64,000 nucleotides of DNA from Alphaproteobacteria bacterium. GTDB lineage: Bacteria; Pseudomonadota; Alphaproteobacteria; UBA6615. The notes beneath the pieces are model-generated. The model saw nothing but the letters and a program-made list of their open reading frames with translations, did no database searches and was not told where the DNA came from. Below are positions 37,101 to 42,250 of this stretch, in pieces (positions within the stretch are counted from its first letter, which is position 1; the number at the start of each line of letters is the position of its first letter). The stretch covers positions 36,722 through 100,721 of the forward strand of contig PBWR01000023.1 of the NCBI GenBank assembly GCA_002727315.1, in the 5' to 3' direction. Both the position numbers and the translations under genes were made by a program.

Positions 37101-38807
37101 GTGAGTCCGCGACCAGCATCCTCCCTCCTGCGCTGGTTCCCGGCTGCCGCCCTGCTGCTCCTGCTGGGGCCCATCGCCGCCGGGCTTCTGGGCACATTGC
37201 TGCCGGCGTTCGGATATCTGCCGGCGCTCGGGCAGGACACGTTCGGGCTTGAGCCCTGGCGGGCCTTTTTCGCCACGCCGGGCGTCTTCGAATCCATCCG
37301 CCTGTCCTTCGTCACCGGGCTCGCCGTGACGGCGCTGTCCTTCGCCGTAGTGATCCTGTTCGTCGCCGGCTGGCACGGCACCGCGTCCTTCGCGCGGGTC
37401 CAGAAGCTGCTTTCGCCGCTTCTGTCTGTGCCCCATGTGACGGTCGCGTTCGGCCTGGCCTTTCTGCTCGCGCCTTCGGGCTGGATCTTCCGCCTGACCT
37501 CGCCCTGGCTGACCGGTTATGAGCGGCCGCCCGACCTGATTATCGTGCAGGACCCGGACGGGTTGGCGCTGATCGCCGGGCTGGCCGTGAAGGAGATTCC
37601 CTTCCTGTTTCTGATGACGCTGGCCGCCATCGGCCAGGTCGATGCCGCGAGTGTGCGCACCATGGCGCGCACGCTGGGCTACGGGACGACCGCGGCCTGG
37701 CTCAAGGCGGTGTTCCCGCTGGTCTATCGCCAGATCCGTCTGCCGGTCTTCGCCGTGCTGGCCTTCGCGGCCTCCGTGGTCGACGTCTCGGTCGTGCTGG
37801 CGCCATCGACCCCGCCGCCGCTTGCCGTCCAGCTGGTGCGCTGGTTCAACGATCCGGAACTCGCGCTGCGTTTTGTCGCCTCGGCCGGGGCCTTGGTGCA
37901 ACTGGGTCTTGTGGTGGCGGCTATCCTCGTCTGGTGTCTGGGCGAACGCGTGATTGCGACATTGGGACGGATGTGGATTCGGGCGGGCCATCGCGGCCGC
38001 AGCGATGTGGTGTTGCGCCTGGCTGCCGCCGCTGCCCTGACGGTGAATTTCTCCGCCGCATTTCTCGGGCTTGCGAGCATGGCCGTGTGGTCCGTGGCTG
38101 GGCGCTGGCGATTTCCCGATCCCTTGCCCGCAAACCTTTCCGCATCGGCCTGGGCCAACAATGCCGACCGGCTGGTGAGCGCGACGGCAAACACCGCGAC
38201 CATCGGGATCGCCGCGGCCCTGGTGGGGCTGGTGCTCACCGTGGGCTGCCTCGAGAACGAAATCCGGCATGGCAAGCGTGCCTCGAACCGGGCGCTGCTC
38301 TTGCTCTATGTGCCCCTGCTGGTGCCCCAGATCGCCTTCCTGTTCGGCACCCAGATACTGCTGGTGATGGGCAATCTGGACGGCGCCTGGATCGCCGTGG
38401 CATGGGCCCATCTGGTCTTCGTGCTGCCCTATATTTTCCTGTCGCTGGCCGATCCCTACCGCAGCTGGGACGACCGCTACGCCAGGGCCGCCATGTGCCT
38501 GGGCGCTTCGCCACTCCGGGTGTTCTGCCGGGTCAAGCTGCCCATGCTGCTGCGCCCGATCGTGGTTGCGACCGCCGTCGGGTTCGCGGTCTCGGTGGGG
38601 CTCTACCTGCCGACCCTGTTTGCCGGGGCGGGCCGCCTCGACACGCTCACCACCGAGGCCGTGTCGCTCGCCTCCGGCGCGGATCGGCGGGCCATCGGCG
38701 CCTATGCGCTGCTGCAGATGATCCTGCCGTTCATCGCCTTCGCGCTGGCGGCCGTGCTGCCGGCCTGGCTGTTCCGCAACCGGCGCGGGCTTCGCGTGGC
38801 GGTGTAG
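37101..38807 (+). CDS. ABC transporter permease with duplicated permease units (YnjC-like)
   Basis: Two BPD-permease halves with EAA-like 'RTMARTLGYGTTAAWLKAVFPLVYRQI' and 'RAAMCLGASPLRVFCRVKLPMLLRPI'. Confidence 0.82.
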   Translation: MSPRPASSLLRWFPAAALLLLLGPIAAGLLGTLLPAFGYLPALGQDTFGLEPWRAFFATPGVFESIRLSFVTGLAVTALSFAVVILFVAGWHGTASFARVQKLLSPLLSVPHVTVAFGLAFLLAPSGWIFRLTSPWLTGYERPPDLIIVQDPDGLALIAGLAVKEIPFLFLMTLAAIGQVDAASVRTMARTLGYGTTAAWLKAVFPLVYRQIRLPVFAVLAFAASVVDVSVVLAPSTPPPLAVQLVRWFNDPELALRFVASAGALVQLGLVVAAILVWCLGERVIATLGRMWIRAGHRGRSDVVLRLAAAAALTVNFSAAFLGLASMAVWSVAGRWRFPDPLPANLSASAWANNADRLVSATANTATIGIAAALVGLVLTVGCLENEIRHGKRASNRALLLLYVPLLVPQIAFLFGTQILLVMGNLDGAWIAVAWAHLVFVLPYIFLSLADPYRSWDDRYARAAMCLGASPLRVFCRVKLPMLLRPIVVATAVGFAVSVGLYLPTLFAGAGRLDTLTTEAVSLASGADRRAIGAYALLQMILPFIAFALAAVLPAWLFRNRRGLRVAV

Positions 38808-39542: not shown

Positions 39543-40163
39543 TCAGCCCCGCTTTCTTGCCCCCGCCGCGTCCATGAGCTGCTCTAGCACCTCGAAGGGC
39601 TGGGCACCGACGACACCCTTCGCGTCGGCGACATAGGTGGGCACGCCCGTGACACCGTATTGCCGGGATTTCTCCCAGTCGGCGTCGATCGCGTTGGAGA
39701 AGGTACGTTTGTCCAGCACCTCGCGCGCGGCTGCACCATCAAGCCCGACGCCCTCGGCGATCTCGACCAGCAGGTCCGCATCGCCGATGTTGCGGCCGTC
39801 GACGAAATAGGCCTCGTAGAGCTTCATGTGGATGGCGTCGCCGCCAGCTTGCGTGTCGGCCCACTTGCCGAGTTCCTGGGCCAGGCGCGAATTGTAGGTG
39901 TGGGTCCGCTTCGCGTAGGGCAGGCCCTCCTCGTCCATCCGCGCCTTCATGCCCTCATACATGGCGTCGAGATCGACATCGCGGCCGGCAAACAGCTGCT
40001 CCAGGGACAGGCCCTCCATGGGCGTGTCGGGATGCAGCGGGAAGTGCACGGTCTGGATGTCGACGTCGTAGGTTTCGCGGATTTTTTCAACACGCACGGT
40101 GCTGAGGTAACACCAGGGTCACACGTAGTCGCCGAAGACCTCGAGAATGACGGGTTCGGACAT
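39543..40163 (-). CDS. FrnE/DsbA-like oxidoreductase with in-frame UGA at the first catalytic Cys (possible selenoprotein or nonsense mutant)
   Basis: ATG at 40163; MSEPVILEVFGDYV[UGA]PWCYLSTVRVEKIRETYDVDIQTVHFPLHPDTP... continues in the same frame to 39543; UGA at 40121-40119. Confidence 0.7.
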
Positions 40164-41569: not shown

Positions 41570-42250
41570 CTAGCCCAGATCCGTGTCGAGGAACTCCGCG
41601 ACCTCACGCTCTGCGGCCGAAAGCAGGAATTGTATATCGTTGCCCGCGAAGAAGCACGGCGCGGCACCCATGCGGACCAGCTCGGCCATCCGCTCCAGAC
41701 TGCGGATGCCCCAGGCGATGACCGGCGTGTCGTGCTTGTCGCCGTAATGGCCGGGGATGCCCATATCGACCGTCAGGTCGTTGGTCCCCACCATCAGCGC
41801 GTCGATGCCCGCAACGCCGGCGATCTCCTCGACATTCTCCACCCCGCGGCGGGATTCGATCATCGCGATGACCATGGTCTCGGTGTTCGCCGCCTCGACG
41901 AAGCCGTGCAAATCCATCGGTTCATAGCCGGTCTGGGGTGCGGTGGTAGAGATGGAACGGTGACCCAGGCGCGCGAATTTGGCGTGGCGGTCATGGCTGG
42001 GCACCCGGATCATCGGGGTCAGGCCGAGATCGAGCCCGGCGGAGCAAATCTGCGCAGCGTCATCGAAGCCGATGGTCGAGTGCTGGATGTCGATATAGAA
42101 CCCGTCGAATCCGGCGACGCGCACGATCTTGGCGGCATCGATCGTGCGCGACAGGCGCAGCGACATCAAGATCGTGCGGCGGCCGGAATAGAGCTTTCCG
42201 CGGAACCGGTTGCGGGTGAAGCCAGCATTGTCATTCATCGAGTTGACCAT
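41570..42250 (-). CDS. HpcH/HpaI aldolase family protein, internally shortened
   Basis: '[20 protein letters not shown]...[33 protein letters not shown]...[36 protein letters not shown]'. Confidence 0.7.

Follow-up and report, generated by a model that had tools for sequence, protein, structure and literature searches.

Gene, protein family and surroundings

The window analysed here is a stretch of 64,000 nucleotides from the draft genome of an Alphaproteobacteria bacterium (contig PBWR01000023.1, assembly GCA_002727315.1). On its minus strand (39543..40163) lies the gene of a DsbA/FrnE-like oxidoreductase with an in-frame UGA that is very probably read as selenocysteine (Sec). From the ATG at 40163, the minus-strand frame translates as MSEPVILEVFGDYV-UGA-PWCYLSTVRVEK..., the UGA being codon 15 (40119..40121), and 191 more sense codons follow it before the terminal TGA at 39543-39545. 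With the internal UGA counted as a residue, the product comprises 206 aa and matches the Pfam family DSBA (PF01323) at 124.1 bits (E 7.9e-36), the gathering score of this family being 25.6 bits. A UxxC redox motif is present, in which UPWC replaces CPWC (residues 15-18). Moreover, the solved FrnE 5cnw could be aligned to the window protein (E 1e-24), with the TGA opposite the first Cys of CPWC. An earlier sequence-only reading of this locus had proposed both the FrnE/DsbA-like identity and a UGA located exactly at the catalytic Cys, and both proposals agree with the Pfam and FrnE matches.

Among 17 aligned orthologues, P16, W17 and C18 of the active site as well as T172, G173, V174, P175 and T176 are invariant. 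The latter residues belong to the segment TGVPTYV (residues 172-178; 39630..39650, minus strand), where the cis-proline loop of the thioredoxin fold would be expected. The N-terminus bears no evident signal peptide, and the oxidoreductase is therefore apparently cytoplasmic. The AlphaFold model of the protein is poor (pLDDT 62.7) and too weak for a fold search.

The neighbouring genes encode maleylacetoacetate isomerase (maiA) and a Bcr/CflA-type MFS efflux transporter. Since this synteny is limited to close relatives, the neighbours offer no hint of function or substrate. Directly upstream of maiA is an ORF of 568 aa (37101-38807, plus strand), to which close relatives have counterparts of 78-89% identity in the corresponding position. 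Unlike the neighbours, an HpcH/HpaI aldolase-like ORF of 226 aa (41570-42250, minus strand) has a counterpart in the flanks of 0 of 80 orthologue loci and is possibly an insertion.

Conservation of the UGA codon and the SECIS element

By searching 95 related genomes, full-length orthologues with 60-90% identity were found in the genus and family, and in every one of them a single internal TGA occupies this codon. Altogether, 111 orthologue matches were collected from the related-genome search, a search of genome records (which took in 80 of 565 relatives) and 385 genomes of the class, with a few genomes counted twice. The alignment at codon 15, which the sequence-only reading had recommended, revealed TGA in 107 of these matches and Cys in four (2 TGC and 2 TGT); an in-frame UGA at the Cys position of homologues is thus conserved across the orthologues. 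The matches are mostly from Pseudomonadota, predominantly Alphaproteobacteria (Rhodospirillales-labelled drafts, the genus of the window included), with others labelled Gamma- or Betaproteobacteria and single records labelled Rokuibacteriota, Deltaproteobacteria or Acidobacteria; the labels of some drafts, such as one labelled Klebsiella, are plainly unreliable. Downstream of the UGA, the gene is under purifying selection (median dN/dS 0.14 in comparison with ten close relatives). In one genome of the same family (L019, G021:C7:90511-91132), the orthologue is split into three overlapping pieces with TGA and SECIS intact, suggesting frameshifts, through either assembly error or decay.

A bacterial SECIS (bSECIS) stem-loop, UCAGCAC-CGUGC-GUGUUGA (40087..40105, minus strand), starts 13 nt past the UGA and consists of a 7-bp stem and the 5-nt apical loop CGUGC (40094..40098), in which G is the second base. 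Published criteria for bSECIS elements comprise a loop of 3-9 nt, a stem of 4-16 bp, a G as first or second loop base, a UGA-to-loop distance of 16-37 nt and an MFE <= -7.5 kcal/mol (PMC13188914). The hairpin lies within all of these limits, with a UGA-to-loop spacing of 20 nt and an MFE of -7.8 kcal/mol.

Comparison of 84 distinct sequences provided further evidence for this element. All 84 have G as second base of the loop, which reads CGUGC, CGGGC, GGUCC, GGUGC or GGUUC, and 99.1% of the stem cells are paired. Compensatory double changes occur in four of the seven stem pairs, and the number of double-change cells (26, against a shuffle mean of 5) was reached in 0 of 500 shuffles. When control stems were slid by 1 to 3 bases, pairing went down to 23-43%. 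For example, an A-U pair has become U-A in L100, L107 and L142, two pairs have changed in L130 (C-G to U-A and A-U to G-C), and one pair alternates between C-G and U-A (20 versus 64 sequences). The stem is absent from all four Cys orthologues. In addition, at the third positions of codons +4 to +11 after the UGA, one base accounts for 89% of cases, compared with 58% further downstream, and these codons run against the GC preference of the gene (GC3 0.46 versus 0.75).

The sequence-only reading had looked for a SECIS at this place and noticed a different hairpin, GGUGUU-ACCUC-AGCACC (40098..40114, minus strand). This 17-nt hairpin exists and folds at -5.3 kcal/mol, but it was rejected as the recoding signal: it overlaps the conserved SECIS, the two structures being mutually exclusive, and shows 0 compensatory changes in the 84 sequences. 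Its loop lacks an early G and lies only 10 nt past the UGA, and its energy is also outside the published range. The doubt expressed at the time that it was a canonical bSECIS was therefore justified, while the convincing element slightly further downstream had been missed.

The same orthologue set, reduced to 90 proteins once identical and short ones were removed, was used to compare Sec and Cys forms. In the maximum-likelihood tree, two changes are required to account for the four Cys members, each nested among Sec forms, although the drawing is midpoint-rooted and the sample biased to close relatives; a Sec-to-Cys direction in the FrnE subfamily is only suggestive. A tentative extension, which we consider somewhat less than an even chance, is that Sec is the predominant and perhaps ancestral state, with a near-invariant SECIS (UCAGYAC-CGKGC-GURUUGA) across several lineages, and that the Cys forms may represent at least two separate secondary replacements in which the SECIS was discarded. 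If this is true, the family would offer a well-sampled example of how Sec is lost, not gained.

Selenocysteine machinery and alternative explanations

The genome to which the window belongs is a draft of 2.24 Mb that is 87% complete. In this assembly, no match to selA was found, selB and selD gave only matches below the curated cut-offs, and no selC (tRNA-Sec) of the quality found in relatives could be detected. Matches to the tRNA-Sec model RF01852 near 50 bits were rejected, as the same search was positive in 14 of 14 control genomes; strong matches in relatives score 64-78 bits. An Rfam scan of the window returned one tRNA and nothing else. As a possible second selenoprotein in the same genome, formate dehydrogenase was considered, but the match is open without an internal stop and gives no support.

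Relatives present a different picture. Among 24 genomes of the family, 19 contain the orthologue, either complete or fragmented. A selA match above the cut-off is present in 18 of these 19, and the one exception is the window's own genome. The five family genomes without the orthologue include two with selA. Moreover, selA was found in all six other genomes of the same genus that were searched, and selB in all ten of the near-complete genomes that carry the orthologue and are more distantly related. A genome of another family (G034, 77% complete) has the Sec orthologue with its SECIS (L013, G034:C77:16257-16874), and selA and selB were not found in it, which parallels the window's own genome.

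In one same-genus genome (G006), all four sel components are located in a single 17-kb cluster on contig C3 (827-844 kb), with selD at 827.0 kb, selC at 829.2 kb, selB at about 840.8-842.7 kb and selA at 842.7-844.1 kb. Contig C24 of the window's own genome (G000) is syntenic with the flank of this cluster up to the 852.5-kb point and stops there at its final base (428757 of 428757), exactly where the homology reaches 852.5 kb and approximately 8 kb short of the cluster; no syntenic match to the other flank was found in the own genome. The most plausible cause of the absence of the sel genes is a gap in the assembly: one unassembled stretch beyond the end of C24 would account for all four missing components, and the genes presumably lie in that part. 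The sequence-only reading had named a genome without sel genes as a possible refutation. This absence is literally true of the draft, but a single missing locus beside a contig end is its most plausible cause.

Two observations were also made on selD. In most relatives, its open frame spans about 750-790 residues (for example, around G006:C3:827020-827928), compared with 311 positions of the SelD model, which suggests a fusion to another domain. A second strong SelD match with one internal TGA (L158, G001:C88:2112-3044) occurs in a draft that is 7% contaminated and is likely a Sec-containing SelD of another organism.

The conserved TGA, the covarying bSECIS and the co-occurrence of the orthologue with sel genes in relatives, which were all computed here together with the purifying selection, argue that Sec is encoded at codon 15. 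This locus is thus very likely to encode a DsbA/FrnE-family oxidoreductase with Sec at the nucleophilic Cys of CPWC, as had originally been suspected. Sec insertion in this organism, as well as the enzyme mechanism and substrate, we infer with the help of what is established about SelB-dependent decoding and DsbA-type enzyme chemistry. When the ribosome is at UGA15, SelB would be bound by the SECIS hairpin (40087-40105) and would bring Sec-tRNA(Sec), resulting in the recoding of the UGA. Sec15 might then serve as the nucleophile towards a disulfide or a substrate of similar kind, and the selenenylsulfide would be resolved by Cys18.

The most serious competing explanation is that the lineage formerly made Sec and has truly lost its sel genes, the gene now being a recent relic, read through at a low level or restarted at GTG 40097. 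All four sel components are indeed absent from the 87%-complete assembly, and the genomes G008, G010 and G016, which have no selA above the cut-off, also lack the orthologue. However, the four genes form one cluster in the same-genus relative, close to the point that matches the end of C24, every other same-genus genome searched retains selA, the SECIS and the reading frame are intact without signs of decay, and a restart at GTG 40097 would lose the active site; real loss of the sel genes is therefore regarded as improbable.

A nonsense mutation or sequencing error, by which an ordinary CPWC FrnE gene would appear as a pseudogene, had been treated as a live alternative in the sequence-only reading, and it too could draw on the missing sel genes of the draft. 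Cys in close relatives, together with neutral evolution of this copy, had also been named there as a refutation of Sec, but the relatives have TGA and the sequence beyond it is under purifying selection. Given that many independent assemblies contribute to the more than 100 orthologue matches with TGA at this codon, and that the SECIS covaries, this explanation is extremely unlikely. Genome-wide reassignment of UGA (e.g., to Trp or Gly) or its reading by another suppressor, which has the internal UGA itself in its favour and nothing more, is negligible, since the same gene is also terminated by UGA and the UGA of the orthologues stands opposite Cys only, with a covarying bSECIS behind it.

Relation to known selenoproteins and FrnE proteins

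A DsbA-like selenoprotein (form 1; COG2761, PF01323, UxxC) was reported in the Sargasso Sea selenoproteome in 2005 (PMC1088965), the GOS survey (PMC2398784) reported it again under the name "DsbA 1", and a 2026 review also lists a DsbA-like selenoprotein (PMC13188914). The family has thus been known since 2005, and the window gene is a further member. It shares with the published DsbA-like selenoprotein (e.g., NIP15863.1) the Pfam family, a UxxC motif with Sec in the N-terminal position and a bSECIS after the UGA, the assignment to a common subfamily being a provisional one by COG/Pfam label and motif.

Gene callers would cut such proteins at the UGA or start them at the downstream GTG, and the active site would be lost in either case; the covarying SECIS motif offers a simple route to the correct annotation of more than 100 such genes. 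Furthermore, an incomplete draft genome can disguise a genuine selenoprotein as a pseudogene.

Compared with the Cys form of FrnE (5cnw, 5cp1), the window protein is homologous over residues 2-194, with CPWC under UPWC. The solved chain has 260 residues and a Cys as the nucleophile of its CxxC motif, whereas the window protein has 206 aa and a TGA at that position; the match to 5cnw ends at chain residue 212. COG2761 corresponds to this FrnE group. The putative DsbA oxidoreductase SCO1869 (3gl5) is also homologous (residues 7-200, E 8.6e-20) and, by score, more distant than 5cnw. With regard to the recoding signal, the SECIS of E. coli fdhF is a SelB-dependent hairpin straight after the UGA, with a small apical loop and an early G. 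The hairpin of the window is of the same type, but it differs in sequence and has its loop 20 nt past the UGA.
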